This document shows positions 5,340 to 64,000 of a stretch of 64,000 nt of DNA, in pieces. Location: positions 299,075 through 363,074 of the forward strand of contig CABIVS010000003.1 of NCBI GenBank assembly GCA_902362375.1, read 5' to 3'. The translations under genes were made by a program, and so were the position numbers. The notes under the pieces were generated by a model. The model had not been told where the DNA came from and made no database searches. It saw only the letters and a program-made list of their open reading frames with translations. Each line of letters begins with the position of its first letter. Within the stretch, counting starts at the first letter, position 1. The stretch comes from Bacteroidaceae bacterium (GTDB lineage: Bacteria > Bacteroidota > Bacteroidia > Bacteroidales > Bacteroidaceae).

Positions 5340-5372
5340 AAAAATGTAGTTATAACAGGTAATTTTAGATTT

Positions 5373-5418
5373 CCCGGATGCAGAGGAGGGGTGTTTCTGC
5401 TCTTCATTCGGGTTTTCT
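5373..5418 (+). terminator. intrinsic terminator after susD
   Basis: A 13-bp stem with one mismatch and one wobble (CCCGGATGCAGAG with CTCTTCATTCGGG) is followed by TTTTCTGTTATT. It ends the SusC/SusD transcript. Confidence 0.7.
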
Positions 5419-5580
5419 GTTATTAGTAGAAATCATTGTATATGTTTTCTAGGATTTGCTGGATTGGGAATGAGTCGTAAATAGTGTTTTTTACTACTTT
5501 TTCTTTATGAAACAGCTAGAAGTGGAGAATATTGGAAATTAATTGGTGATTTGTGAACATAGATTTGGTCGACAGCCCCC

Positions 5581-5617: not shown

Positions 5618-7201
5618 ATGGAAAAACTGCAATCAAACTTATTTTTTCCTTTAGCGGGAGTAGCTGCTATAGCTTCCCTAGCTTCTTGTGCAGGCAAGCA
5701 AAAACCTGCGGAACAGCAACCTCTGAACATTGTTTATATCATGACAGACGACCATACGGCTCAAATGATGAGCTGTTATGACACTCGCTATATGGAAACT
5801 CCGAATCTCGACCGTATTGCAGCTGACGGAGTACGTTTTACTCAAAGTTTTGTGGCCAATTCTTTAAGTGGTCCCAGCCGTGCCTGCATGATAACGGGTA
5901 AACATAGCTGTGCAAACAAATTCTATGATAATACCACTTGCGTTTTCGACAGTTCTCAGCAGACTTTCCCTAAACTCTTGAGAAAAGTCGGTTATCAGAC
6001 CGCATTAGTCGGTAAATGGCATCTTGAGAGTTTGCCATCAGGATTTGATTACTGGCAAATCGTCCCCGGACAAGGAGATTATTATAATCCGGACTTTATT
6101 ACGCAGGACAATGATACCATTCAGAAACATGGTTATATCACCAATCTTATTACGGATGATGCCATTGACTGGATGGAAAACAAGCGTGACCCACAAAAGC
6201 CTTTCTGCCTTTTGATTCATCATAAGGCTATTCATCGTAACTGGATGGCAGATACTTGCAATCTGGCTTTATATGAAGACAAGACCTTCCCGTTGCCGGA
6301 TAATTTCTTTGATGATTATGAAGGCCGTCCGGCTGCCGCTGCACAAGAAATGAGCATCGTGAAAGATATGGATATGATCTATGACCTCAAAATGCTGCGT
6401 CCTGACAAGAACTCGCGGTTAAAATCACTGTACGAAAGATTCTTAGCCCGAATGGATGAAGGACAACGTGCTGCATGGGATAAATTCTATGGTCCGATTA
6501 TCGATGACTTCTACAAACAGAATCCGCAAGGCAAAGACCTTGCCAATTGGAAATTCCAGCGTTATATGCGTGACTATATGAAGACGGTTAAATCGCTGGA
6601 TGACAATGTAGGTCGTGTACTCGATTATCTGAAAGAAAAAGGATTGCTGGATAATACACTTGTGGTCTATACTTCCGACCAGGGCTTCTATATGGGCGAA
6701 CATGGCTGGTTCGACAAACGATTTATGTATGAAGAATCCATGCGTACACCGCTTGTCATGCGCTTGCCGAAAGGCTTCGACCGTAGAGGGGATATCACCG
6801 AGATGGTACAGAATATCGACTATGCACCCACTTTCCTCGAATTGGCAGGAGCAGAGGTGCCATCGGATATTCAGGGAGTCTCGCTTGTTCCTCTGTTGAA
6901 AGGAGAACATCCGGAAAACTGGCGCAAGGCACTTTATTATCACTTCTATGAATATCCGGCCGAGCACATGGTGAAACGCCATTATGGAATACGCACAGAA
7001 CGCTATAAACTGATTCATTTCTATAATGATATCAACTGGTGGGAACTCTATGACATACAGGCAGATCCGACAGAGATGCATAACCTCTACGAGCAACCTG
7101 AATACGAGCCGGTAGTGAAGGAATTGAAAGAAGAGATGTTGAAACTACAAGAACAATATAATGACCCTGTCCGATTCTCCCCCGAAAGAGACAAGGAATA
7201 A
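5618..7201 (+). CDS. S1-family sulfatase, serine type, lipoprotein
   Basis: A sulfatase removing sulfate esters from sugars, probably in the periplasm or at the cell surface. The nucleophile site reads SGPSR (Ser84 counted from 5618), a serine that needs conversion to formylglycine by an anaerobic (anSME-type) maturase. Other family marks are the metal-binding TDDH (44-46 region), VGKWHLE, and TSDQGFYMGEHGW. The start at ATG 5618 is chosen because it lies just downstream of the TACCTTTG promoter box and gives a lipoprotein signal with lipobox LASC; the frame is open further upstream to 5543 but that would place the start before the promoter. Length is 527 aa, normal for the family. It is 15 bp from the GH20 gene. 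The sulfated sugar and position attacked cannot be read from the sequence. Confidence 0.93.
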   Translation: MEKLQSNLFFPLAGVAAIASLASCAGKQKPAEQQPLNIVYIMTDDHTAQMMSCYDTRYMETPNLDRIAADGVRFTQSFVANSLSGPSRACMITGKHSCANKFYDNTTCVFDSSQQTFPKLLRKVGYQTALVGKWHLESLPSGFDYWQIVPGQGDYYNPDFITQDNDTIQKHGYITNLITDDAIDWMENKRDPQKPFCLLIHHKAIHRNWMADTCNLALYEDKTFPLPDNFFDDYEGRPAAAAQEMSIVKDMDMIYDLKMLRPDKNSRLKSLYERFLARMDEGQRAAWDKFYGPIIDDFYKQNPQGKDLANWKFQRYMRDYMKTVKSLDDNVGRVLDYLKEKGLLDNTLVVYTSDQGFYMGEHGWFDKRFMYEESMRTPLVMRLPKGFDRRGDITEMVQNIDYAPTFLELAGAEVPSDIQGVSLVPLLKGEHPENWRKALYYHFYEYPAEHMVKRHYGIRTERYKLIHFYNDINWWELYDIQADPTEMHNLYEQPEYEPVVKELKEEMLKLQEQYNDPVRFSPERDKE

Positions 7202-41967: not shown

Positions 41968-43131
41968 ATGGTAACTATAAAAATATATCTAAGAACATAT
42001 GGTAACGACCCGGAAAATGGAGTCGTGTGGTTATCCTTTTATGTCGATCGTGAAAAAGTGAACTTTTCCACGAAGGTTTCAGTTGCCATTAAGGACTGGA
42101 ATGATAAAAAGAAGTGTGTAGGAGCAGGGGATAAGTTAGCAAAAGATAAGAACTTGATTATAGAAACTATTCTAGCAAGGGTAAACAATGTTTTTGTAAA
42201 GTATCGTCTTCGTGACAGGAAACTTACTAGAGACTCTTTTCTCAAAGCATATCATCGTCCGACTGATTATAATACTTTCTTTGAGTTCGTGTCGGAGTAT
42301 CAGAAGAAGGAATCTCTCCGGCTTGAAGATTCTACGTACAAGACCAATTTGTCTGTAATCAAGAAGTTGAAGGAATACAACCCTAACCTTTATTTTGATG
42401 ATATAACCGGTGAGTGGCTTGACGAGTACTTCTTTCATTTAATGAATGAGCTGGAGAATAATCAGAATACGGCAAATAAAAACATGGCCACAATCAAAAA
42501 GTATGTCCTGGCTGCATATAACGCAGGGTATATGGATGAAAATCCTTTTAAAAACTGGAAGATAAAGAAAGGGATTCCTTCCGGAGAGTATCTGCAGGAA
42601 GATGAATTGCAGACTTTGATGGGTTTATATATGGATGGAGAATTGGATTATAAGCACCATAAAACGTTAGAGATGTTTTTGTTTTTATGCTTTAGCTCAT
42701 TACACATAGGGGATGCAAAGAAGTTGACTCTTGAACAATTTACAGATAATACGTTGACTTATTTCCGAATAAAACTGAAGAAAAGAAAACCATTTCCTAT
42801 TCAAGTACCTATATCGGATCCACTTCATACACTGCTGAAAAATATTGTTGGTACCAGAAAAAAAGGTATCGTTTTTGAGAAACTACCTGCTGATCAGACA
42901 ATGAATAGATTTCTGAAAGAAATAGCTGTGATTGCCGGAATAGAAAAGAACATTACACATAAAGTTGGCAGACATACCTTTGCGACTATTTTTTTGCGTA
43001 AGACTAAAGACATAGCTTCCTTAAAAGAGATACTAGGACATTCTGATTTAAAAGAGACTTTAGTGTATGCTCATGTATTAAATGAAAGCAAACAAGAAGG
43101 AGTACAATGCTTTAATTGTTTCGCTTTTTAA
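41968..43131 (+). CDS. tyrosine recombinase/integrase
   Basis: A 387-residue phage-type site-specific recombinase of the Bacteroidetes kind: arm-type N-terminus (about 1-90), SAM-like core-binding domain (about 100-205) and catalytic domain (about 215-380). HKVGRHTFA holds the His-x-x-Arg box and GHSDLKETLVYAHV the catalytic Tyr. The place where most relatives have the first catalytic Arg (TGLR-type motif) reads SSLHIGDAK, with His246; a missing first Arg is known from Bacteroides IntDOT. It is transcribed away from tRNA-Cys, where integration most likely took place. Confidence 0.92.
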   Translation: MVTIKIYLRTYGNDPENGVVWLSFYVDREKVNFSTKVSVAIKDWNDKKKCVGAGDKLAKDKNLIIETILARVNNVFVKYRLRDRKLTRDSFLKAYHRPTDYNTFFEFVSEYQKKESLRLEDSTYKTNLSVIKKLKEYNPNLYFDDITGEWLDEYFFHLMNELENNQNTANKNMATIKKYVLAAYNAGYMDENPFKNWKIKKGIPSGEYLQEDELQTLMGLYMDGELDYKHHKTLEMFLFLCFSSLHIGDAKKLTLEQFTDNTLTYFRIKLKKRKPFPIQVPISDPLHTLLKNIVGTRKKGIVFEKLPADQTMNRFLKEIAVIAGIEKNITHKVGRHTFATIFLRKTKDIASLKEILGHSDLKETLVYAHVLNESKQEGVQCFNCFAF

Positions 43132-52196: not shown

Positions 52197-55100
52197 TTAT
52201 TTGGTTGATCGGGTAAATGGTTTCTTGGATTTTTCATCTAGTTCTTCAGCATTTCGTATATCTCGTAGGGATACGTATGCTTTTAGATTTTTGAGGGTAT
52301 TAATCAGCATTCCGATTTCTTTTATGAGTTTATCTAGTTCTGTTGCTGATGTATCAGTTTCATGGATTTCCTGGTTATTTCGGACAGGAGTATCTATTGC
52401 TGCGTAATTACCCGAAGCTCGTTGGGGCACATGACCTTTACGGGCATCTTCAATCGCATTTAGTACCAAAGGATAATTTATATGTTTTTGTAACCGGGAT
52501 AAGTCCTCGGCGTTAATGATTAATTCTGCACCATTCTCTGAAACTAGAGAAGTGTGTCGGACGATTCCGGTTTGTGCAGCCCCAATATAAGGTATGTCCT
52601 GATAGTTCTTGCCGTCATCTTTCCCGATGACATCATACCGACCGGATGCCCATTGGGATACGCTGACGGTTGCTCGTTTGGGAGCGTCGGTCGAAGACGT
52701 GTCGGAGTCGGAAGATCCGGACGAGTGTTTGCCGCTAACCATTCCTTTCAGAGCACTTTTTGCAGTTGCAAGTGCTGCCATAATCAAGCCGGTGAGAATG
52801 GCTGCACGAGCTGCACCGGAAGCTCCGAATGATGCAACGGAATCCGGCATAGCCATTGCTTCAGCTGTAGATCTGGCCACGGCACCGGTGGCAGTGGCTG
52901 TAGCTTTTATAATTTCGGCTTCGATGATCTTTCCCAGTATATCGAATACGATATCAATCATTGTGTCTGCAAAACCCTGCATTGCATTTTCTTGTCCGGA
53001 GATAATGTTCCCCATTGCTGAACCAAGTGCTGAACCATACTGTTTGTATGTTTGCAGACGTTCCTGATATTGTTGTTGTTCTTTCTTGGTTTGTGCTGCT
53101 GTCTTCTTTTGTTCAGCATCTTTTGCTTTGGCATGTGAGGCCTGTTCTTCCTTCATGCATTTTATTTTGAAATCAAGAAGTTGTTTCTCAACTTGTTTTC
53201 GTTGTTCGGCGTTTAAACCGGCAATGGAAAGCATTCGTTCAAGATGCATGATGGTAAGTTGTTCCATAGCATCATTATAGGCTGTTTCGGAGCTTAGATT
53301 CTCATCTTTGCCGGAGGCATACAGTTCTTTTAAATCCTGTTGTTGCTTTTCATATTGAGTTGTTTCTTCGTCAAGTAGCTGTTGAGTGTGGTCTTTCTGC
53401 ATTTTTAACTTCAGATCATTAATCTGATTTTGGATTTCGGCACCTTCTTTGGATTTGGATCCAGCAACTTTAAGGGACCGTTCCAGGTATTCCATCTGCA
53501 GACATTCCATTTCTTTCTGAAATTGCTTTTCTGTCTTCAGAGTTTCATCATTACCCTCCAGAAACATTTCTTTCAGTATGGCTTGCTTTTGGGTATATAG
53601 TTTTTTTTCTTCTTCAAGTTGTTTTTTTCGCTTCTTTTCGGATTCTTTTTCATCCTCGATTGTCTTATCTCCTTCCGGTTTGTCTCCGGTAACAACAGTT
53701 TCAGGGAGAAGACTATTATTGATACGGTTTAGAAAAGGGCGGAACTTAGCTTCGGTTTGAGCAATCTTTTTTTCCATATCATATACACTTTTAATATAGT
53801 CTTCTATATATTCTCCCATTTCATCGCTAAGTGCTTGCCCTTTGAAATACTTGCGACTGATGTTGTGATAGGCTTGTCCCCAAGCCTGTTGCCATTTCAT
53901 GCCAGCTTTTTGGAATTCCGAGGTTGTTTGTTTCAGATCGTCAATTACAATATTAGTAAGCTGTCCGTTTCCGAGTGAACTGGCTACTCTGCTACGGATA
54001 CCCTCAAGTGCTGTAGCCTGTTCTTTTACGGCACTAGTCACGATTTTATCAGTAGCCTCATTTTGTACCTTGAGAGCTATTTGTGTTTGTAAAGAACCGT
54101 TTATTCGTTTGTAGGCATCATTAATCTCATCAAGTGAGCTTTTCTCGGTGAGAAGATGTGGAAGATACTGGCCATAGGTTTCATTAACAGCTTTAATCAG
54201 CCGGCGGCGGTCCTCTGTGCCTTCTCTTGCTCTTTTAAGAGCATCAAACAAATTATTGAGCGAACGTTGCTCTTTAAGTAACTCGCTTTGGAATTTCTCT
54301 TGTGCCTCCGTTGCTTCTTTGGATCGTTTAGTGAATTGATAGATTGCCATAGCTGCTGTGGCCAATAATGAAATAATGATTCCTATCATATTTCCTTTCA
54401 TTATGGCATTGAGTCGCTGCATGGCGGCTGTGGCCATCGTTGTGTTGCCGGCTAATGCATATTTGGCTGCAGATAAAGCTAGAATTGAGGCTAACCTGAT
54501 CTTACTCCATGTCTCCGCTATTTTGTCGGTTGCAATACTTAATAGTTTGGCATTTTTGAGCTTTGTCTCGTAAAATTCAGTAGCCTTTACAGCTAGGTAG
54601 TAAGTTGTAATGGCAGTTGTTAGAGTGATGATTATACCCGAATGTTTGACCATAAACCCAATCAGGTCTATAATTTTTCTGGTCCAGTTTACTGTACCGT
54701 TTACTGCACTAATGATTGAAGGATTGAGTTTTTCCATTAACTCCATTCCCATCTCATTCATTTTGTTTTTCGCTTGTGCGAGTTTGGTGGCTGCCGTATC
54801 GGATTTGGTAGCTGCCTGTTCCATGGCGACACTGGTGTCGGTGACTGCTTGGGTGTAGTATTTGACTTTTTCAGTTTCGTTGATCAGAACAGAAGCGACG
54901 TTATACCCCTCTTCACCAAACATTTTTTTGATTTGTGCTGCAGACAACTGTTTTTTCTGCAGGTTATCCAGTGCAGTCTCCAGTCCTACGATTTTAGGAT
55001 TCGTATCGTTAGCTCCGGTTTGAAGAGTAAGAAAGAATTTCTTTAGACCGGTACCGGCAATTTCATCTTTGATACCCTTTTCTGCCAAAGTTTCAATAGT

Positions 55101-56087
55101 TCCGACTAACTGCTCAATGGGGATGTTAGCGGATGAAGCGGCAACACCGGATTTGGTTATTGCATTAGTAACTGATTCAACTGCAGCAGATCCATATTTA
55201 GAACCGGCTGCCATGACATTCGCATAACGGGCTGCCTGATCAGCACCATCTCCGTATTGATTGAGTGAAAGAGTTACAGCATCAACAGCATCTTTCAATG
55301 TCATTCCTGAAGCAGATGCTAAGATGAGTGTTTGTTCTGTTACTGCGGCTAGTGCTTCCTTGTTAGATAGTAACTCCGGTTTAGCAGAACCGACCAATTT
55401 ATAAGCATCAAGAATTTCGGTTGCTGATTGTCGGATCCGGATACCGGAATCACTAATTGTAGTGGAAAGCCGGATTGCTTCTTGTTCCAGCCAATTAATG
55501 TTGTCTTTGGAAAGTCCTGTTAATGCTTCGACATCGGCTTTGGCATCTTCACGTTCATTGCGTTTTTCACGAAGTTGGTTCAGCTTTAGTGTTAAGCCTG
55601 TCACAGCTGCTATGACGGTGGTGACAACTGCAGCATATTTATTAAACAGTTCCACGGCTTTTCCTATTGGACTAGCTTGACAACCAACTTCTACACGCAT
55701 ATTTTTTTGTGCCCTGGCTACTGCTTCAGCGACGCGCCTATTTTGCTCCAGGGCTGCATTGTATTGTTCAGTACCGGGTATGGCTGCACGGAGTTCTTTA
55801 CGGACTTTTTGGCTGACAGATAATAGTTCGTCATAGGTTGCTCCAGAGAGGTTTTTCAGGATTCGGTCGGTCTCGGCTACTTTTTGCTTATAAGTATTGA
55901 GAGTTTTATATTTATTCTCCAGTTCTTTTTGCAGAGTTTTGGATTTTCTGGCATATCCTGATTCTGATTTATCAAGAGAAGATATTTTATTCTCTAGCTG
56001 GGAGATGGCATCTTCTATCTTCTTGACGCCGGCTGATGCTTCAGTTCCATCAATAAATATTTTAATACTTCGGTTTAGGTCGTTCAT
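52197..56087 (-). CDS. phage tail tape measure protein (TP901 type)
   Basis: A 1296-residue tape measure protein that sets tail length. An N-terminal coiled coil (about 10-75), the TP901-like core (about 190-420, with SGVAASSANIPIEQLVGTIE and GLKKFFLTLQTG), hydrophobic helices (about 490-515, 570-595 and 1110-1135) and long E/K/Q coiled coils (about 800-1060) are seen. Using roughly 1.5 angstrom per residue as for other tape measures, the tail would be near 190 nm; that is an estimate. It shows that the tail is long. Confidence 0.93.
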   Translation of the reverse strand: MNDLNRSIKIFIDGTEASAGVKKIEDAISQLENKISSLDKSESGYARKSKTLQKELENKYKTLNTYKQKVAETDRILKNLSGATYDELLSVSQKVRKELRAAIPGTEQYNAALEQNRRVAEAVARAQKNMRVEVGCQASPIGKAVELFNKYAAVVTTVIAAVTGLTLKLNQLREKRNEREDAKADVEALTGLSKDNINWLEQEAIRLSTTISDSGIRIRQSATEILDAYKLVGSAKPELLSNKEALAAVTEQTLILASASGMTLKDAVDAVTLSLNQYGDGADQAARYANVMAAGSKYGSAAVESVTNAITKSGVAASSANIPIEQLVGTIETLAEKGIKDEIAGTGLKKFFLTLQTGANDTNPKIVGLETALDNLQKKQLSAAQIKKMFGEEGYNVASVLINETEKVKYYTQAVTDTSVAMEQAATKSDTAATKLAQAKNKMNEMGMELMEKLNPSIISAVNGTVNWTRKIIDLIGFMVKHSGIIITLTTAITTYYLAVKATEFYETKLKNAKLLSIATDKIAETWSKIRLASILALSAAKYALAGNTTMATAAMQRLNAIMKGNMIGIIISLLATAAMAIYQFTKRSKEATEAQEKFQSELLKEQRSLNNLFDALKRAREGTEDRRRLIKAVNETYGQYLPHLLTEKSSLDEINDAYKRINGSLQTQIALKVQNEATDKIVTSAVKEQATALEGIRSRVASSLGNGQLTNIVIDDLKQTTSEFQKAGMKWQQAWGQAYHNISRKYFKGQALSDEMGEYIEDYIKSVYDMEKKIAQTEAKFRPFLNRINNSLLPETVVTGDKPEGDKTIEDEKESEKKRKKQLEEEKKLYTQKQAILKEMFLEGNDETLKTEKQFQKEMECLQMEYLERSLKVAGSKSKEGAEIQNQINDLKLKMQKDHTQQLLDEETTQYEKQQQDLKELYASGKDENLSSETAYNDAMEQLTIMHLERMLSIAGLNAEQRKQVEKQLLDFKIKCMKEEQASHAKAKDAEQKKTAAQTKKEQQQYQERLQTYKQYGSALGSAMGNIISGQENAMQGFADTMIDIVFDILGKIIEAEIIKATATATGAVARSTAEAMAMPDSVASFGASGAARAAILTGLIMAALATAKSALKGMVSGKHSSGSSDSDTSSTDAPKRATVSVSQWASGRYDVIGKDDGKNYQDIPYIGAAQTGIVRHTSLVSENGAELIINAEDLSRLQKHINYPLVLNAIEDARKGHVPQRASGNYAAIDTPVRNNQEIHETDTSATELDKLIKEIGMLINTLKNLKAYVSLRDIRNAEELDEKSKKPFTRSTK

Positions 56088-56093
56088 ATGGCT

Positions 56094-56702
56094 TTACTTT
56101 TCAATGTATATTTTGGTTGCGTCGATAAGCATAGTGTCAAAATAGCGCATACAGATATCGGCAAGTTCCGGAAGACGGTTTTTGATGACCGGATCGAACC
56201 AATGGTAAGCCTGCCGGTTACCTTCATTCTGTTTGCCAAGTGATGCGGGATTAGTATGTCGGATGATACTCGTATTGATTTCCATTCCGTTGATTCTCTT
56301 CAGATAGCTCCATTTACTTCCGATAAGACCACCTTGCCCACGTCCGGCACCTTTGTGGATATAGACACCATGACGAGGAAAAGAGAAACCAAGTCGGTTG
56401 ATTAATCCGTATTTGTCAGTATAGGCTTTAGGTTGTAGTTCACGAGCAATGCGTAAACTACGGGATGAAATGGTGGCTTTGAGTTGTTTACTGACAGCAT
56501 CCTGCCATTGTTCCACCTCTTTGTTGAATGCGGTGAGTCGGTCGGCATCCTGGGCGATGTTATAGCGTTCTATCTCCGAGATGGTTTCCATTCGGATTAG
56601 TCGGGAAGTCGGAGTAGAAGATAACTTATCCGCTTTTCGTCGGACTGCATTATAGCGTTTGATTTCCGACTGCTTGTCTGACATTCGTTTATAGAATTCC
56701 AT
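56094..56702 (-). CDS. minor tail protein, HK97-gp10-like by position
   Basis: About 202 residues from ATG 56702 (MEFYKRMSDKQSEIKRY); the next ATG at 56684 is an alternative 4 bp after the upstream stop. The frame is open to 56783 but that would be mostly inside the previous gene. It contains a helical N-terminus and RHGVYIHKGAGRGQGG, followed by HWFDPVIKNRLPELADI. The HGVYIHKGAGRG stretch resembles tail-completion proteins; assignment is mostly positional. Confidence 0.65.
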   Translation of the reverse strand: MEFYKRMSDKQSEIKRYNAVRRKADKLSSTPTSRLIRMETISEIERYNIAQDADRLTAFNKEVEQWQDAVSKQLKATISSRSLRIARELQPKAYTDKYGLINRLGFSFPRHGVYIHKGAGRGQGGLIGSKWSYLKRINGMEINTSIIRHTNPASLGKQNEGNRQAYHWFDPVIKNRLPELADICMRYFDTMLIDATKIYIEK

Positions 56703-57171
56703 TACAAAAGTAGTTTGGATCGACGATGAATTCTTCCGGAACATTAACAAAGAAGGTAAGCACGGTGCCATAGAAGTTATCACCGATCGGGCCGATACCG
56801 TTAATTTGAGTATTGCGGTCTACATATTTAATGTCTTTCAGCAATTTATTCCGGATCTGTTTACATATACTCTTGCATTGTTTGGCTGCCTGATTAATCG
56901 TTTCCGGATTTCCGGAGATTGTGTTTCTGGCCACGATGAATGAGTAGACTTGTTTGTCATTGAGTGAATCGGCTTCGTTGTCTTCGGATTCGGACTCGCA
57001 ACCATCAACGGCGATAAGGATGGTTCCATCAATGGAGGATAAGCTGTCATCGAGGCTGATCAGGTCCTCCAGTCCGAATGCTGTGAAGAACCTTTTCTTT
57101 TGAGATGTGTGTGAAATGGCTTTGAGTGCCGAAGCTAAGGCCTCACCATAAGCGAAATGGTCATACTCCAT
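56689..57171 (-). CDS. minor tail protein, function unknown
   Basis: A 160-residue protein, the first gene of the visible tail module. It starts MEYDHFAYGEALASALKAI and ends with a strand-rich GDNFYGTVLTFFVNVPEEF. Size and position suit a tail terminator or completion protein. It overlaps the next gene slightly and follows a terminator hairpin. Confidence 0.6.
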   Translation of the reverse strand: MEYDHFAYGEALASALKAISHTSQKKRFFTAFGLEDLISLDDSLSSIDGTILIAVDGCESESEDNEADSLNDKQVYSFIVARNTISGNPETINQAAKQCKSICKQIRNKLLKDIKYVDRNTQINGIGPIGDNFYGTVLTFFVNVPEEFIVDPNYFCNGIL

Positions 57172-57198
57172 AACTGTATAATGTTTAGGTTATGGAGA

Positions 57199-57226
57199 CA
57201 AAAATAGCCCGCTGCGGGCGGGCTAT
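57199..57226 (-). terminator. terminator between small-gene chain and tail module
   Basis: On the minus strand ATAGCCCGC pairs with GCGGGCTAT and is followed by TTTTTG. A -7-like TATTTTTG overlaps its end (57199-57206), so the tail genes may be transcribed from there. Confidence 0.75.
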
Positions 57227-57244
57227 AAAGGACAAAACGATAGG

Positions 57245-57382
57245 TTAGAAGAACAGGAATAGTGCTAGCAAGGCGAACATGAGCAGAAGCCAAAAAACTT
57301 TTGCAAGGATTGAGCGCGAGGCTTTAAAGAATACCAGGCACAGAAGTACTATTCCGGATATAGTTATTATCGCTAAGATCAT
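57245..57382 (-). CDS. 45-residue two-helix membrane protein
   Basis: A very small protein: MILAIITISGIVLLCLVFF, a short basic turn (KASRSILAK) and a second hydrophobic helix (VFWLLLMFALLALFLFF). Its ATG overlaps the stop of the 46-residue gene upstream (ATGA). A holin-like or membrane-accessory role is possible given size and phage context, but is not shown. Confidence 0.6.
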   Translation of the reverse strand: MILAIITISGIVLLCLVFFKASRSILAKVFWLLLMFALLALFLFF

Positions 57383-57519
57383 TTTTGTTCTTCGTCTGAT
57401 TCTGGAAGCAAGATACGAATTAATTCAGAAAGTTGTGCGGCTGCACGCTGCTTTTCGTCCATTGGTGTTTCCGGATCCAGTAATTTGTTTACTAACCGTA
57501 AGGCTTCATATCTATTCAT
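57379..57519 (-). CDS. 46-residue acidic protein
   Basis: A 46-residue helical, acidic protein (MNRYEALRLVNKLLDPETPM, ending PESDEEQK). It lies 4 bp after the 79-residue gene and is coupled by ATGA to the small membrane protein. Coding is supported by position in the chain and composition. Function unknown. Confidence 0.6.
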   Translation of the reverse strand: MNRYEALRLVNKLLDPETPMDEKQRAAAQLSELIRILLPESDEEQK

Positions 57520-57523
57520 AATG

Positions 57524-57763
57524 TTATTTTTTAGGGTGTTGAATACTGCTTATTGATTGAATATGTTTTTTTATTATTCTGATTTCAGAAATAAGTGTTA
57601 GTCGATTAGTGGAATCGATGTCCGGAGAGTCTATATCAAGAGCCAGGTCAATAGCTTTTTCCAAAGTGGTTTCCATCCATGAATGTTCTCCTTCCTGGAT
57701 AGTTTTTATTGATTCAATGCAATCATCGGTGAGGATGATGCCATTGATTTCTGTTGGTATCAT
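57524..57763 (-). CDS. 79-residue protein, function unknown
   Basis: A small helical protein (MIPTEINGIILTDDCIESIK at the start, many I, E and D). Coupled to the previous gene by ATGA overlap at 57760-57763. Not recognised. Confidence 0.6.
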   Translation of the reverse strand: MIPTEINGIILTDDCIESIKTIQEGEHSWMETTLEKAIDLALDIDSPDIDSTNRLTLISEIRIIKKHIQSISSIQHPKK

Positions 57764-58113
57764 GGCTGGTCTCCTTTCTGCTCCAGTAGGTGAGATCCTT
57801 CTCCAAAAGAATAATGACCGCGTACTTTACTGTATGAGATATAACATACAGGATTGCTATCATCGTCTCCTAGTTTTATACTCCATTGTCCACCGAAAGA
57901 GTCTCCATTATGCCCATTGAATTTGAGTTTTTTTTGATTAGGGTATTTCTCATTCAGTTCCTTGACAACTTCTTCGAATTCGCATTTTAGGGAATCCATA
58001 GCACATTCATCTTGTACTAGAATACGGTCGTATGCCTGGGCAAATTCACACATTTCCTGACCCTTACGATTGACTTTCTGATAGGTCTGTACATGATGGA
58101 TAAAGAATATCAT
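57760..58113 (-). CDS. 117-residue protein, function unknown
   Basis: A soluble mixed protein with a C-terminal beta-rich part (GQWSIKLGDDDSNPVCYISY). Starts inside the stop of the 113-residue membrane protein gene (ATGA). A second Met at residue 21 (MCEFAQAYDR) is a possible start. Not recognised. Confidence 0.55.
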   Translation of the reverse strand: MIFFIHHVQTYQKVNRKGQEMCEFAQAYDRILVQDECAMDSLKCEFEEVVKELNEKYPNQKKLKFNGHNGDSFGGQWSIKLGDDDSNPVCYISYSKVRGHYSFGEGSHLLEQKGDQP

Positions 58114-58451
58114 TTTTCACCTCCTTTCTGACACTTCTTTGCTCGATAGACACAGATGACTGCTCCGATCACAGCAGCAGGATAAACAAAAGTTAAGCAA
58201 AAACAGGCAATTGCGGATAGGTAGCAAATGTCTTTTGTCTCAAGTTTGTGTAGGCTTTTTAATAAAGGTGTATCTTCATTTGTTTCGCTTGCGCGGAATG
58301 AGGGCACGTAGTTCGTGCCCTGGGTTAATTGTTTCATATACTGTGATGTTTTGGCTGTTGAAGGCAAGTTCTCTTGCATCCATTTGGATGCAAGAACGGC
58401 TGCCAATTCCCGAGTTCGCCAAAACATCACAGTATAATCCCCGAAGAGCAT
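58110..58451 (-). CDS. 113-residue protein with C-terminal membrane helices and a palindromic coding segment
   Basis: The C-terminal half has one or two transmembrane segments (ICYLSAIACFCLTFVYPAAV, about 75-105) and a basic end (KKCQKGGEK). The N-terminal half (residues 6-38) is encoded by a 100-bp imperfect palindrome whose opposite strand reads a similar peptide. Internal Met codons leave the true start uncertain. First gene of a chain of five small coupled genes. Confidence 0.5.
   Translation of the reverse strand: MLFGDYTVMFWRTRELAAVLASKWMQENLPSTAKTSQYMKQLTQGTNYVPSFRASETNEDTPLLKSLHKLETKDICYLSAIACFCLTFVYPAAVIGAVICVYRAKKCQKGGEK
58337..58436. repeat. 100-bp inverted repeat within a small gene
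   Basis: Perfect 19-bp arms TATACTGTGATGTTTTGGC at 58337-58355 and, inverted, 58418-58436. The 62-bp interior holds a second inverted pair, CTTGCATCC and GGATGCAAG (about 58373-58394). Confidence 0.85.
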
Positions 58452-58524
58452 TATAACAATGTGGGAAAGACAGCCGTATTCGTTTATAAATAAACTTCTA
58501 CTATTTCGTATATGAATTTGCTTC

Positions 58525-58538
58525 CGACATGAATGTCG
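58525..58538. promoter_or_regulatory. palindromic operator-like site
   Basis: CGACATGAATGTCG is a 6-bp inverted repeat with a 2-bp centre, 74 bp upstream of the first small gene. A regulator site is plausible but unproven. Confidence 0.3.
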
Positions 58539-58557
58539 CTTGCAAACTGATGGACAT

Positions 58558-58597
58558 AAAAAAAGCCCAATTTCGTATTGAGCATCTAACCGGGCTC
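58558..58597 (-). terminator. terminator after the cargo operon
   Basis: On the minus strand AGCCCGGTT pairs with AATTGGGCT (wobbles), followed by seven T. It ends transcripts coming from the cargo region. Confidence 0.75.
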
Positions 58598-58620
58598 ATT
58601 CGGTACAGATATATCTGTAA

Positions 58621-58668
58621 TGTTTTGGCACTGCAAATATGAGGATAATATTTGAGAGTGCCAAACAA
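58621..58668. repeat. hairpin between terminator and small cargo gene
   Basis: GTTTTGGCACT...ATAT and ATAT...AGTGCCAAAC form a long, nearly continuous inverted repeat with a short loop. It could be an operator or an mRNA-stabilising hairpin. Confidence 0.5.
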
Positions 58669-58968: not shown

Positions 58969-59532
58969 TTATTTATTGTTGATTTTGATAATTAAGCTGC
59001 GAGTTTCTTTTATAAGTCTAGTGCAACGTTGTTGGATTTCAGGGATGTCAACATCAGAAATAGGCACATCTTGAGCATCAAAGTTGGTAGCAGAAGTAAA
59101 TAAGTCATTGATACTATTTTCTAATGAGCGGATATCCATACCAAAAAGACTTGTTAGTTCTATAGCCTCCTTCATTCGATTTTTAAGCATAAATATCGAA
59201 TTTATTTTTGATGCCATATGAGTAATATTGATACTGGAAGAGGTTTCTAAAAGATCTTCTATACTATGGACTATTTCTTCAATCGATTTAAGATCATTTA
59301 TTAAAAAATCTTTTTCAAAGCGCTGTTCTGTTAGTCTTTTAGTAATATACCATGCAACTATAAGTGTCAGAAATGATGTGATAATAAGACTTACATACTC
59401 AAAAGCATTAACAGAATAATCTATCTCGCTTATAAATATGAAACCGCAAAATAGGCGTATAAAATGTATTAATAGAAATGAGGAGCAAATAATCAAAAGG
59501 ATTATCAGACCTTTCTTTATTATTTTTTCCAT
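58969..59532 (-). CDS. two-TM coiled-coil membrane protein (third gene of GHKL/STAS operon)
   Basis: A 187-residue protein from ATG 59532 (MEKIIKKGLIILLIICSSF). Two transmembrane helices (about 6-30 and 45-63) are followed by a long cytoplasmic helical region (about 65-185) with heptad-like spacing (ENSINDL, SIEEIVHSIEDLLE). The start overlaps the STAS-like gene end by 13 bp; the frame is open to 59562 but this adds residues read deeper inside the previous gene. No enzymatic motif. By position it could be the membrane effector or sensor of the module; this is inference. Confidence 0.72.
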   Translation of the reverse strand: MEKIIKKGLIILLIICSSFLLIHFIRLFCGFIFISEIDYSVNAFEYVSLIITSFLTLIVAWYITKRLTEQRFEKDFLINDLKSIEEIVHSIEDLLETSSSINITHMASKINSIFMLKNRMKEAIELTSLFGMDIRSLENSINDLFTSATNFDAQDVPISDVDIPEIQQRCTRLIKETRSLIIKINNK

Positions 59533-59840
59533 ATTTGATTTTTGATATAATCGATAACCCAATTAAAGTTATTGGTATGAAAAATAATTGTAGTAGAGAC
59601 ATTCTGTATCCCTTTTTGTCGTGCTAATTCTCCAAAAGATTGATCAAGGAAGGAACGAGGATATGAAATTACACCATCTAAATATATGTGCAGTTTTTCT
59701 GCTTGACTAAAAGCTTTCTCAAATTCTGGACATAATTTGGTCTCATAGAAATCTTCGCCTGAAAATTCTCCTAAAGATTTCCATCTACCTCCAAGGATAC
59801 GACTATAGTCGCTTGCTATTGTGATAGAGAATTTTTCCAT
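59520..59840 (-). CDS. STAS-like (DUF4325-type) protein
   Basis: A 106-residue protein with the DUF4325 pattern: a GGRWKSLGEFSGEDFYETKL segment, a central strand HIYLDGVISYPRSFLDQSFG and a final helix/strand pair. The conserved SYPRSFLDQSFGELAR corresponds to the STAS-like core where partner-switch proteins carry a phosphorylatable Ser. It overlaps the GHKL gene by 25 bp and the membrane gene by 13 bp, so the three are obligately co-translated. By analogy to SpoIIAA/SpoIIAB it may be a substrate or partner of the GHKL protein. Confidence 0.75.
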   Translation of the reverse strand: MEKFSITIASDYSRILGGRWKSLGEFSGEDFYETKLCPEFEKAFSQAEKLHIYLDGVISYPRSFLDQSFGELARQKGIQNVSTTIIFHTNNFNWVIDYIKNQIWKK

Positions 59841-60901
59841 TGTAAATAATTATTTTTACTAATTGACCATGAATAATATGTACCTATAAAAAAAGGAGTA
59901 TTGAGAATCCTAAAATCTCCTTTTATATAACGCAAAGATACACTATTTGTTATTAAAAAAAAGTTAGATATCCATTCTTTTTCTATATTCTCTAAAATTA
60001 GTGGCATCCCATTTCCTCTTCCCGGTTGTCGAGTAGTAGATCCCAATCTACCTTTTAAGGCATTTAGTAATATGTCTTTTTCGGAATTCATTTCTGTTTT
60101 GGTTAATAACATGGATTCTTTATACGAATTAATAATCCCTCCTCCCATGTCCACAAAAACATAGTGCATTGATTGTGTATGTACGTCAGAATATCTATGT
60201 ATCCACCAGTTTATATTTTTGTTTTTGATGCCATGTTCTGCTGCATTTCCAATTAGCTCAACTAATAAATCGTATAATGGTTCAAATGTATCTTCTATGT
60301 CAATATTGTTTTTTAATTCTTGGGTGAGTTCCGCTATTAAGTTAACATCTACTAATTTTGAACGTTCTATCTCTTTGTCCGTTACTTGTTCATTTTCGTG
60401 GACTAAAGGCATTTGCTCTTTTTTTCTAATATTATAGTTATGGTGGCGTAATAGGTTTAAGCCAGTTGAAGAAATAAACTTGAGATATTCGCGAAGGTTC
60501 TCTGGGTTGTCATCATCATATTTTTCAATTTCATAAACAATTTCATCTATATTTGAATATTTGTGTGCATAGTATGCAGTATCCAATCTCTTCTCTAATA
60601 ATTTGGGATTTAGTATAAGTAGATTCTTATTAGGTTGTAGGGATTCTTTTTCTAATTTTGCAATGAATATAATATAAGCTTCCTCGGATATATTTTTTAA
60701 ATCATGGCAATCTATATAGATTGGCTTTTTAAGGTCTTTTGATAGTTGCTTTATAAAAAAGAGAGACTCTTCGATATATTTTTCGTTTAACGAAAATATA
60801 ACAGGCATTTTTAATGTGCGCTTCTTTGTCGATATATGATAGTACATATATGATGCACACAAAAATAAGAAGATGCAAACTTCGATGATTAATCCTGTCA
60901 T
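59816..60901 (-). CDS. membrane-anchored GHKL ATPase with N-terminal STAS-like region
   Basis: A 361-residue protein from ATG 60901 (MTGLIIEVCIFLFLCASYMY), chosen because AAAGAG precedes it and because the longer frame (from 60940) begins inside the 122-bp repeat. One N-terminal transmembrane helix is followed by an alpha/beta segment (KPIYIDCHDLKNISEEAYII) that resembles a STAS/anti-anti-sigma core. The C-terminal half is a GHKL ATPase: N box LLVELIGNAAEHG (Asn219), G1 box VDMGGGI (Asp251) and G2 box PGRGNGMPL. There is no HisKA domain, so it resembles serine kinases of the SpoIIAB/RsbW type more than sensor kinases. First gene of a three-gene overlapping operon. Confidence 0.8.
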   Translation of the reverse strand: MTGLIIEVCIFLFLCASYMYYHISTKKRTLKMPVIFSLNEKYIEESLFFIKQLSKDLKKPIYIDCHDLKNISEEAYIIFIAKLEKESLQPNKNLLILNPKLLEKRLDTAYYAHKYSNIDEIVYEIEKYDDDNPENLREYLKFISSTGLNLLRHHNYNIRKKEQMPLVHENEQVTDKEIERSKLVDVNLIAELTQELKNNIDIEDTFEPLYDLLVELIGNAAEHGIKNKNINWWIHRYSDVHTQSMHYVFVDMGGGIINSYKESMLLTKTEMNSEKDILLNALKGRLGSTTRQPGRGNGMPLILENIEKEWISNFFLITNSVSLRYIKGDFRILNTPFFIGTYYSWSISKNNYLQWKNSLSQ

Positions 60902-60920
60902 CTCTTTACTAAATATTTTA

Positions 60921-61042
60921 ATGGGTGAATCCCTTATCATCGTGCGCCAAAAGGTTTATATATAGACCTTAATCCGATTTTACGGATTACACGACGAAAA
61001 GGGATTCATGTTTTATATAATTATTTGGCGAATGCTAAGGTA
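60921..61042 (-). repeat. 122-bp structured repeat, copy A
   Basis: Same length as copy B at 62780-62901, in the same orientation, and 112 of 122 positions identical by my alignment. On the minus strand it folds into an 18-bp closing helix (GAATCCCTTTTCGTCGTG with CACGATGATAAGGGATTC, one mismatch, one wobble), a hairpin TAATCCG-TAAAAT-CGGATTA and a hairpin beginning AAGGTCTATA. It ends 19 bp before the GHKL ATG. Confidence 0.88.
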
Positions 61043-61061
61043 CAATCTTTTCTGAATGTAA

Positions 61062-61090
61062 CAAAAAGAAAGCGGAGTTTTTTACTCCAC
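61062..61090 (-). terminator. terminator after KAP NTPase
   Basis: On the minus strand GTGGAGT pairs with ACTCCGC (one mismatch/wobble), followed by TTTCTTTTTG. Confidence 0.65.
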
Positions 61091-61140
61091 TTATTTGTGA
61101 CTAATATTGATTGAAATAATTATGTAGATTTGTAACGAAT

Positions 61141-62562
61141 TTATTCCACAGTGTTGACGAGCATGAAATTTTCCAGTAAATCAATTTTGTTAGTAAAGTA
61201 TGATAATGGTATCATTTTATTATTTTTGAATACCCATTCTAAAGCCTCGGACAATAATTCTTTATTGATAAATTTTACATTAAAGTTGATTTCTAATTTT
61301 GATTGAGATGATGTTCTAGTTAAAAGTTCATCATTATTGTCTGAATTTTGATAACTACAGACATAACATCTTAATAATAAAGCTAATGTATAGTAAAAAT
61401 AGCGGTTAGGAGAATAACTTGCGCTTAATTTAACGTTAAATATTAGTTTTGGAAGTATAGTTTCTATTTGATCTATAAGTTCTTGTATTGAGTAGCTTTT
61501 ATAACTGATTTTATCATAGCAATCAGGTTCACAAATTCGAAGATATGTGAGTAAACATACTAAATCTGAATATATGATTTGATTATAGTTATACATATTT
61601 AATGATAGACGAATATGAGTGAATATCTTTTCTATTTGTCTCAATGATAGATTTTTATACATGAATAGAATGTTAGCTATAACTAAAAAAGACTCCTTTA
61701 TTCCATCTCTTGAATCTCTCGCCTTTTCATAGCTATCAAAGCCATAATAATCATATAAATAGTTACAGAATTGTCCTATATTAGGGGCTGGTAGTATATA
61801 TTCAATATCAACAAACCTTTTCAAGTATTCATTGGCGTCTATTAGATCACTTCCATAATATCCACGTATAGAGTTACTTAATTGTTCCTTATCTATGGAT
61901 AGGACAAATACTATATTAGGTATGTTGAAAAGATGTTTAATTCGTTCTAAAGTTTTTACTGCATAATGTGGGTTGCATCGATCAAGTTCATCTATGATAA
62001 ATATCAATGGTTTTTTGTCACAGACTTCATTAACGTATTTTTCGAGTTTTTCCCGAAATTGTTTCAGGCTATATTTTTGGCTTTCATAATTTTCTATTTC
62101 TTTTTTCAACATTGAAGCACCCTCTTCAATTCCATCGCAAAGTATATCAACAGTTTCTTCACCCGCATATTTCTTTACTACTCCCTTGAACATTGCGGGA
62201 GCCGCTTTCAATACGATTTTTCCTGCTGTATTTATGACTGATGTTAGTGCTGCTTCTGCTTTTTCTTGTGGATTCATTTTTTTTATTTCCCCAAGTAATC
62301 CGACAAGGGGATCTGATATGAAATCATTTTCCCAGGCATTAAAATACAATGTGTGGAAATGATCTAATTTAAGATATGCTTTCCACATTTCTACAAATGT
62401 GGTTTTTCCTGTTCCCCATTTGCCATTTATTGCCAATACGAAGCCTTTATTATATGTAGTGATAATCGTTTTAAGGACTTCAGCATACTTCTCCCGATCC
62501 AGCTTACAATTTTTAAAAGGTTGTTCTGCTGGGATTTCTAATTTTTCAAGTTTGCATTTCAT
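61141..62562 (-). CDS. KAP-family P-loop NTPase
   Basis: A 473-residue KAP NTPase. Walker A is NGKWGTGKTT (about 46-55), the family motif YFNAWEND follows (73-80), and Walker B is IFIIDELDRCNP (about 187-198, Asp191/Asp194). A hydrophobic/amphipathic insertion (about 105-150) lies between Walker A and B, as is common in KAP proteins, which often associate with membranes. The C-terminal half is helical with no known domain. KAP proteins include the F-plasmid phage-exclusion protein PifA; an anti-phage role here is inference. It is monocistronic, with its own terminator and a 122-bp repeat on either side. Confidence 0.87.
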   Translation of the reverse strand: MKCKLEKLEIPAEQPFKNCKLDREKYAEVLKTIITTYNKGFVLAINGKWGTGKTTFVEMWKAYLKLDHFHTLYFNAWENDFISDPLVGLLGEIKKMNPQEKAEAALTSVINTAGKIVLKAAPAMFKGVVKKYAGEETVDILCDGIEEGASMLKKEIENYESQKYSLKQFREKLEKYVNEVCDKKPLIFIIDELDRCNPHYAVKTLERIKHLFNIPNIVFVLSIDKEQLSNSIRGYYGSDLIDANEYLKRFVDIEYILPAPNIGQFCNYLYDYYGFDSYEKARDSRDGIKESFLVIANILFMYKNLSLRQIEKIFTHIRLSLNMYNYNQIIYSDLVCLLTYLRICEPDCYDKISYKSYSIQELIDQIETILPKLIFNVKLSASYSPNRYFYYTLALLLRCYVCSYQNSDNNDELLTRTSSQSKLEINFNVKFINKELLSEALEWVFKNNKMIPLSYFTNKIDLLENFMLVNTVE

Positions 62563-62573
62563 AGGTTCTCGTT

Positions 62574-62792
62574 TTAGATTGTATTTATGGTAAAAACAAT
62601 AAATAAATGCTTATTTTTAGGTTTAATAAGAGTATGTGATCTATCGGATGGCCGAGTTAGATTCCATTGTTTAACTAAAACAGCTTTGTTAGTTTTATGC
62701 CATTCTCTTATTGATTTTTTGTGCTTTTTTTCAATATTGCCATTAAGCTGTTCGCAATTTTCAATTGTAAAATAGTGAAATGGGCGAATCCC
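62574..62792 (-). pseudogene. open frame without start, probable gene remnant
   Basis: A frame of 72 codons with no ATG, open from an in-frame TAA inside repeat copy B. Its composition (EWHKTNKAVLVKQWNLTRP) looks coding, so it may be the 3' end of a gene cut by the repeat, or a gene with a non-ATG start. It lies between copy B and the KAP gene. Confidence 0.4.
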
Positions 62793-62901
62793 TTATCATT
62801 GTGTGCCAAAAGGTTTATATAGAGACCTTAATCCGATTTTACAGATTACACAATGAAAAGGGATTCATATTTTATATAATTATTTGGCGAGTGCTAAGAT
62901 A
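62780..62901 (-). repeat. 122-bp structured repeat, copy B
   Basis: Counterpart of copy A. The closing helix (GAATCCCTTTTCATTGTG with CACAATGATAAGGGATTC) has only one mismatch; relative to copy A one pair changes C-G to T-A on both sides and another changes G-U to A-T. It lies 217 bp before the KAP ATG, on the same strand. Confidence 0.88.
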
Positions 62902-62912
62902 TAAATAAAAAA

Positions 62913-62934: not shown

Positions 62935-62984
62935 ATATTTTATTTATATTTACTGAAAAATAATTATAAAATAAGAATGATGTG

Positions 62985-64000
62985 ATGAAAATGAATGATT
63001 GGATTAAGAAAATTTATGTGGAATCTTTTATGTATGATTTTGGTATTCATTTTATTAAAAGATTTCATTGGTTATTGTGGATATATGATAAAACAGAGTG
63101 GAATTGGGTTGGTAGATTATTATGTAGTTTTGAAAATTTTGAATACTACAGAGAAACTAAACGTAGGAAAGAATTTAGTAATAATTATCAAAATGTACTT
63201 GAAGAACATCTAAATGAAATAGTAACACTGTTAGAAAAAAGTTCTTTACCTTCCCCAATTTTATTAGAAGCGATAAATGATACTAGTGGTTTTGAACACT
63301 TTAATGCAGAGTCTGTACCTTGGTTTGGTGAGAATTATATAGCTGTAAATTCAGGTATTTGTTTTTATAGTCATATTTTAGTAAGATGTTTGCAACCATA
63401 TTTTATAGATATTCAGTTTGGACAAAATTCGTGGTGGGGGCAACGCTTGAATTGGTATTGGAATAGAAGGTTTGTAATATCATCCGTAGCTTATGTTAGT
63501 AAAGATTTTCAATCTGCTTTGATGCTTATGTCTTTAATTCCTGAAGATGATTCTTTATTAGAGGGTATTGAAAAATTTGTTATATCTCATGAGTATGCTC
63601 ATTTAATGATCCGAACGTATGGATATGAAAAATTTAAATTTAATTCTTATTTTAATAAAGAAACTGTTTTGATGATAATGAATGATGAGGAAGTTGCAGC
63701 TGACTCTATTGCATTGCTTATTTTATATTTTATGAGTAAAAGGGAGAGTAAGTCGTTTTATCTTTTATATGGTCCCCAATTTATTTTTGCTATATTGAGT
63801 TGTTATGAACAGGGAAAGCTGATTGAGACTCCTAAATCTCATCCTTCTTTTTTTTCTAGATATAATTATCTAAAAGATATGATTAATCAGCTTGAACCGA
63901 ATGATTTATATGAAAAATTTGATGGAGTAATTTGGAATATATGGGAGAATAATAAGGACAAAATTAAGATTCAATCAATAAAAAAAATAGATTTCCTAAA
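62985..64000 (+). CDS. HExxH metallopeptidase-like protein (runs off the window)
   Basis: At least 338 residues from ATG 62985 (MKMNDWIKKIYVESFMYDFG), open to the window end. The zinc-peptidase motif SHEYAHLM (His202, Glu203, His206) is followed about 40 residues later by NDEEVAADSIAL, which can supply the third ligand (an E-x-x-A-D pattern). No signal peptide or clear membrane helix. Lit-like (U49) phage-exclusion peptidases carry a similar HExxH, but similarity beyond the motif is not established. A good -7 box and a palindrome precede it. The C-terminus is missing. Confidence 0.75.
   Translation, partial: MKMNDWIKKIYVESFMYDFGIHFIKRFHWLLWIYDKTEWNWVGRLLCSFENFEYYRETKRRKEFSNNYQNVLEEHLNEIVTLLEKSSLPSPILLEAINDTSGFEHFNAESVPWFGENYIAVNSGICFYSHILVRCLQPYFIDIQFGQNSWWGQRLNWYWNRRFVISSVAYVSKDFQSALMLMSLIPEDDSLLEGIEKFVISHEYAHLMIRTYGYEKFKFNSYFNKETVLMIMNDEEVAADSIALLILYFMSKRESKSFYLLYGPQFIFAILSCYEQGKLIETPKSHPSFFSRYNYLKDMINQLEPNDLYEKFDGVIWNIWENNKDKIKIQSIKKIDFL

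Follow-up and report, generated by a model that had tools for sequence, protein, structure and literature searches.

VapKSC is a three-gene unit encoding a STAS–GHKL kinase, a small STAS antitoxin and the VapC toxin (Chambers et al., EMBO J 2026, PMC13373217). According to the main text of that paper, its authors propose that VapK phosphorylates VapS on Ser48 and thereby frees the VapC toxin; the phosphomimic VapS S48E loses VapC binding, and in E. coli the vapKSC operon confers about 2-log protection against phage Bas42. The same text describes a second pair, CapK, which has an HTH, and CapS, which has a winged HTH, that regulates neighbouring immune operons. A further paper (PMC12137116) describes, in its sections on this protein, a GHKL–Shedu protein with no STAS part.

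Here we analyse three genes, A, B and C, in a 64,000-nucleotide stretch of Bacteroidaceae DNA (the window). The first-pass annotation knew of no described system with this exact make-up; that view has to be revised, as vapKSC, judged by the main text of PMC13373217, is a close relative, though one with a PIN nuclease as its third component. Kinase phylogeny and gene content place A–B–C in a widespread sister branch of VapKSC whose effector is presumably another one, a membrane protein. We found no description of this branch in open-licence PMC full text, where PMC13373217 was, judged by title and abstract, the sole relevant paper; the terms ‘transmembrane’, ‘DUF4325’, ‘pore’ and ‘Bacteroid’ are absent from its main text, and a description elsewhere is possible. 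We favour, at slightly better than even, a reading of A–B–C as a VapKSC-like toxin–antitoxin or abortive-infection immune module with a membrane effector, in which phosphorylation, binding of C by B, toxicity, the trigger and the anti-phage role are all presumed.

Organization of the A–B–C locus

The three genes lie on the minus strand, A and B overlapping by 25 bp and B and C by 13 bp:

59816..60901, minus strand: gene A, STAS-like and GHKL kinase, VapK/CapK-like (profile homology, predicted fold and tree)
59520..59840, minus strand: gene B, 106-aa DUF4325 STAS-like protein, VapS-like (PF14213 above cut-off)
58969..59532, minus strand: gene C, 187-aa membrane protein, proposed effector (hydropathy and homologue alignment)

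This arrangement bears out the overlapping layout first read from the sequence, with a transmembrane (TM) helix, a STAS-like region and a GHKL domain in A, DUF4325 in B, and two TM helices followed by a cytosolic helical bundle in C. The DUF4325 pattern noted for B is upheld by the PF14213 match. Structure prediction, which the first-pass annotation had proposed as a check, gives A a GHKL fold resembling SpoIIAB, of the anti-sigma kinase type. The reading frame of A is open from an ATG at 60940 (374 aa), but the start is likely the ATG at 60901, yielding a 361-aa protein. In the 374-aa numbering, an N-terminal TM helix is followed by a low-confidence linker at about 140–175 and the GHKL domain at 177–366; the STAS part is defined by predicted secondary structure and profile alignment.

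Between 41968 and 57171, ten genes were compared with PHROGs and six had matches, including integrase, amidase, tail proteins and tape measure. The integrase gene likely lies close to one end of the prophage:

41968..43131, plus strand: phage integrase gene (phrog_1, 2.7e-35)

A sister phage from human faeces, MT835542.1 (L001), aligns at 92% over 54616 to 58665, and the alignment resumes at 80% across positions 61439 to 62576, over a KAP gene. At the site of A–B–C it has instead an exonuclease–BRCT gene and a 173-aa gene without a family. Because the sister phage holds a different cassette between the shared flanks, A–B–C is prophage cargo at an exchangeable site. The alternative cargo encodes an RNase_T exonuclease with a BRCT domain (5708-6661, minus strand of L001) and a hydrophobic 173-aa protein (6677-7198, minus strand).

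Two further features of the region are recorded here. A perfect 19-bp inverted repeat within the phage region (58337-58355 and 58418-58436) has arms 62 nt apart, and L001 has a perfect 20-bp inverted repeat of different letters at 5357-5458, again with a spacing of 62 nt; the pair at 58337-58436 and its counterpart may possibly delimit an invertible segment. A 339-aa frame without a Pfam match (62982-63998, plus strand) runs open at the end of the window and contains HEYAH, which we take to be a metallopeptidase-like motif.

Conservation of the three-gene unit

A profile search of genome contigs with A identified four loci (Paradesertivirga, two Bacteroidota MAGs and a Prevotellaceae MAG), each with the order A–B–C, a membrane protein as C, and overlaps of 19–25 and 16–35 bp. 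Downstream of each of two more A relatives (L102 and L103) in G003, one of these genomes, come a DUF4325-like gene and then a membrane gene. Among 395 Bacteroidota genomes searched with A, six matched, one of them already known; the five new matches are distant relatives, all with the three genes. All 11 further genome loci found with A carry the trio. In the plasmid collection, where 8 loci were fetched from 11 matches (three Vibrio matches like H10 were left out), a kinase, a DUF4325 protein and a membrane protein are encoded together in six: Leptospira, Vibrio alfacsensis, two Acinetobacter, Novosphingobium and Aeromonas. The kinase is short in two of these six, being cut by an insertion sequence in L016 and reduced to a 174-aa GHKL-only protein in L019. 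The remaining two of the eight are counter-examples, namely Vibrio parahaemolyticus (L018), with DUF4325 and membrane genes and no kinase, and Pseudomonas (L014), with DUF4325 and neither partner. The neighbourhood search suggested by the first-pass annotation thus finds the association conserved (11/11 genome loci and 6/8 plasmid-collection loci), and A–B–C is a conserved system rather than an isolated oddity. Separately, G003, a Bacteroidota MAG, holds three different copies of the trio (L004, L102 and L103).

The distribution of these relatives bears on whether the unit is a superinfection-exclusion or host-takeover moron, in which C in the inner membrane would block DNA entry by other phages, A and B would tune the timing and no cell would die. 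Small membrane proteins commonly act as exclusion proteins, and an exchangeable site in prophage cargo would suit such a role. The relatives examined, however, are located in genome contigs or plasmid records; viral contigs searched with A and C, and phage records searched with a distant A, yielded none. We regard this explanation as quite improbable.

PIN and membrane branches of DUF4325 loci

Searching the 395 Bacteroidota genomes with DUF4325 instead of A gave matches in 66 genomes at 76 places. Removal of 27 frames of at least 260 aa (classed as fusions by length) and of the already known G004 left 48 standalone loci. Twenty of these have a GHKL and a PIN gene, two a PIN gene with no GHKL gene detected, four a GHKL and a membrane gene, and nine a GHKL gene with neither type of third gene; the other 13 have none of these, and several are ordinary STAS antagonists. 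The third gene therefore encodes a PIN nuclease in 22 loci and a membrane protein in four, as called from motif and hydropathy. Pfam PIN was detected in seven of ten third genes tested, two of the seven lying just under the cut-off, and the PIN-motif proteins L075, L080 and L087 are assigned by motif, with no Pfam match. A hydrophobic stretch is also present in some PIN proteins (1.62 at residue 71 in L058 and L059; 1.58 at residue 85 in L065). The long frames, 27 of the 76 places at 260–432 aa, suggest fusions of DUF4325 to other domains; PHROG 5816 (441 aa) likewise has a DUF4325 domain near its end.

In the 20 GHKL–PIN loci, the GHKL gene precedes and the PIN gene follows the DUF4325 gene. 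By their make-up these loci are probably vapKSC, and VapS would accordingly be a DUF4325 protein, a name absent from the main text of PMC13373217. The window shares with VapKSC a three-gene unit with a STAS–GHKL kinase first and a small STAS protein bearing a conserved Ser/Thr second. Profile comparison shows the PIN-locus kinases to be homologues of A, with 257 aligned columns (probability 96.9, E 1.6e-10), and the second gene of those loci encodes DUF4325; with the distant membrane-locus kinases A aligns at E 1.4e-36.

A kinase tree of 37 rows (17 membrane-type kinases, 13 of the 20 GHKL–PIN kinases and seven of the nine GHKL-only kinases; L016, L019, L102 and L103 were left out, and L069 equals L011) separates the two branches. 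The 17 membrane-type rows form one clade with support 100/98, apart from the 13 PIN rows, which form another with 94/89. The three third-gene labels require two changes on this tree as opposed to 16.3 in shuffles. Given this clade-wise split and the two label changes, one ancient switch in effector type could by itself account for the distribution of third genes, although a long-branch warning, which includes the window's branch, leaves fine placements unsure. The membrane branch spans Bacteroidota, Pseudomonadota and Spirochaetota.

The two branches also differ at one kinase position. A column that is Trp or Phe in 10 of 11 PIN-locus kinases, and His in the eleventh, holds Glu, Asn or Asp in 23 of the 31 A sequences and an aromatic residue in only three, the columns being matched by profile alignment. 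This aromatic column is probably equivalent to the ssDNA-binding Phe54/Trp68 of VapK/CapK, a conserved Phe/Trp through which ssDNA would activate the VapKSC kinase. If so, the trigger of the membrane branch may be a signal other than ssDNA.

A candidate phospho-acceptor in B

In B, the candidate phospho-acceptor is Ser63, within SFLDQSFG at the start of the second helix. It is kept in 73 of 73 close B sequences and in 19 of 21 membrane-branch or plasmid rows, the exceptions being L083 (Ala) and L018 (Gly). MAFFT matches the Ser of ordinary STAS antagonists to the residue before it, Arg62 in the window, and position 62 in the 73 close sequences is Ser in 61, Arg in six and another residue in six. 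The conserved serine of B thus lies one residue further on than the Ser/Thr of PIN-type and STAS-antagonist proteins; Ser63 is nonetheless the most likely candidate acceptor.

The presumed kinase–substrate pair formed by A and B resembles CapK–CapS in combining a STAS–GHKL kinase with a STAS substrate and in its tie to immune cargo. It differs in that family scans of A and B turned up no HTH family, and B consists of only 106 aa with a STAS-like domain.

The membrane protein C

Gene C has two TM helices with a short external loop, a long helix running from TM2 into the cytosol, a conserved juxtamembrane stretch (LTEQRFEKDFLINDL) and a cytosolic helical bundle. Unlike the VapC nuclease of VapKSC, it matches no PIN family at E 1. 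Each of the 21 C proteins examined carries a membrane anchor of one or two hydrophobic segments close to the N terminus, and such N-terminal segments are absent from 12 of 12 PIN third proteins. Between the window clade and the distant clade, the C proteins can be aligned as homologues across TM2 and the juxtamembrane stretch (probability 97.8, E 8.4e-13, 55 columns). On the kinase, by comparison, a TM helix occurs in just 16 of the 31 A sequences, about half of the kinases close to A and a further difference from VapKSC, so tethering of the kinase appears to be optional. The membrane-tethering proposal of the first-pass annotation therefore stands for C and loses generality for A.

The topology of C, also seen in sensors, allows it to be read as a sensor of membrane stress or phage adsorption that acts through B or A to switch a partner elsewhere, for example a host sigma factor or regulator. 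SpoIIAB and RsbW kinases control sigma factors, and A resembles them by predicted fold; tethering in about half of the A sequences would fit as well. Generic four-helix-bundle matches of C include histidine-kinase sensor domains, which points weakly in the same direction, but these matches are at a level that the tool calls common. Kinase A also carries its own STAS-like region and its unit includes a membrane protein, in contrast to SpoIIAB–SpoIIAA and RsbW–RsbV. Among the genes scanned next to A–B–C there is no sigma factor gene, and the three-gene units examined contain neither a sigma factor gene nor a regulator gene. In the sister clade, moreover, the third slot holds a PIN protein, which in VapKSC is the toxin. 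A sensory role for C is, on this evidence, unlikely. That C instead harms the cell we infer from its position in the operon.

Neighbouring genes and a structured element

Upstream of A, the cargo continues with a KAP gene and two copies of a structured element:

60911..61045, minus strand: structured leader-like element directly upstream of A (fold, 135 nt)
61063..61092 (approximate ends), minus strand: terminator-like hairpin followed by a T run, between the KAP gene and A (fold; inference)
61141..62562, minus strand: KAP P-loop NTPase, PADLOC candidate PDC-S20 (562.7 bits to the PADLOC model)
62770..62904, minus strand: another copy of this element, lying upstream of KAP (90% identical to the copy at A)

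The element at A has a fold z-score of -6.1, and a consensus of four sequences contains 26 pairs, four of which have changes on both sides. It also lies upstream of KAP in the sister phage (L001:9473-9573, minus strand), and in an IMG/VR contig (L104:3365-3467, minus strand) it is located at the beginning of a 478-aa gene, behind which comes a D12 adenine methyltransferase gene. It had no convincing Rfam match, and its exact pattern occurred in 0 of 395 genomes. The element resembles a leader or exchange site shared among cargo cassettes.

We considered the KAP gene as a fourth member of the module and set it aside, because a hairpin resembling a terminator and a copy of the structured element set it apart from A, and because L001 has KAP with another cassette; PDC-S20 shares the cargo region with A–B–C and is judged a separate unit. 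A regulatory link to such cargo would nevertheless follow if A and B formed a two-gene switch beside an unrelated membrane gene. The nine DUF4325 loci with a GHKL gene and neither type of third gene would fit this, as does the control of adjoining immune operons by CapK–CapS described in the main text of PMC13373217. Against it, B is a STAS-like domain without a DNA-binding family, C overlaps B and is itself retained across phyla, the kinase clade is tied to C in the tree, and L001 retains KAP without A–B–C, all of which make this the most improbable of the explanations considered.

PADLOC-DB 2023 models gave no family for A, B or C of the window at E 1, nor for eight proteins of the membrane-type loci L007, L013, L015 and L072 at 0.001. 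Among 102 neighbours of 18 membrane-type loci (143 listed minus 41 removed manually, most of them short frames or frames presumed spurious), 39 PADLOC families matched at 1e-8, counted as families and not as distinct proteins; the 25 families listed for them, one member each, include restriction-modification, ThsB, PDC-S15, S31, S66 and RT-TIR. In a comparison set of 71 of the 73 listed neighbours of nine housekeeping STAS loci, which was selected differently, four families matched, one member each. Ten large neighbours scanned singly, eight of them from the 102, gave one PADLOC match, the L098 methyltransferase, which is outside the 102. Because these are family counts from unequally selected sets, with one match in ten single scans, we place little weight on defence-island enrichment, and the signal is weak.

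Proposed mechanism

The module with a membrane effector that we prefer is supported by the predicted fold of the kinase, the conserved gene order and overlaps, the grouping in one clade of the kinases that go with membrane third genes, the serine conserved in B and the prophage location. Under this model, unphosphorylated B would keep C inactive in the resting state. A stress signal, probably phage infection, would lead kinase A to phosphorylate the serine at the start of the second helix of B, most likely Ser63, and phosphorylated B would release C. Freed C, already in the inner membrane, would oligomerize or open and cause growth arrest or cell death, thereby protecting the kin of the lysogen, and the prophage, from a second phage. 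The earlier proposal of a partner-switch module in prophage cargo is retained in this form, with a GHKL kinase, a STAS protein and the third gene as the likely effector, as kinase fold, synteny and the VapKSC and CapK–CapS precedents suggest. The sensing of membrane state or phage infection that the first-pass annotation read from the prophage location would be an additional assumption.

Only tentatively do we entertain a stronger version, in which A–B–C would be an undescribed cross-phylum immune system whose STAS–GHKL kinase and DUF4325 antitoxin gate a membrane-killing effector, and whose trigger would be a membrane or phage-entry signal, not ssDNA, read jointly by the anchored kinase and the effector.

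If the preferred model is correct, the kinase–antitoxin switch of VapKSC would be a modular platform on which effectors can be swapped, an RNase being freed in one branch and a membrane protein in another. It would also give a function to DUF4325 and to an unannotated operon family present in Bacteroidota genomes, in Pseudomonadota and Spirochaetota records of the plasmid collection and in a prophage.
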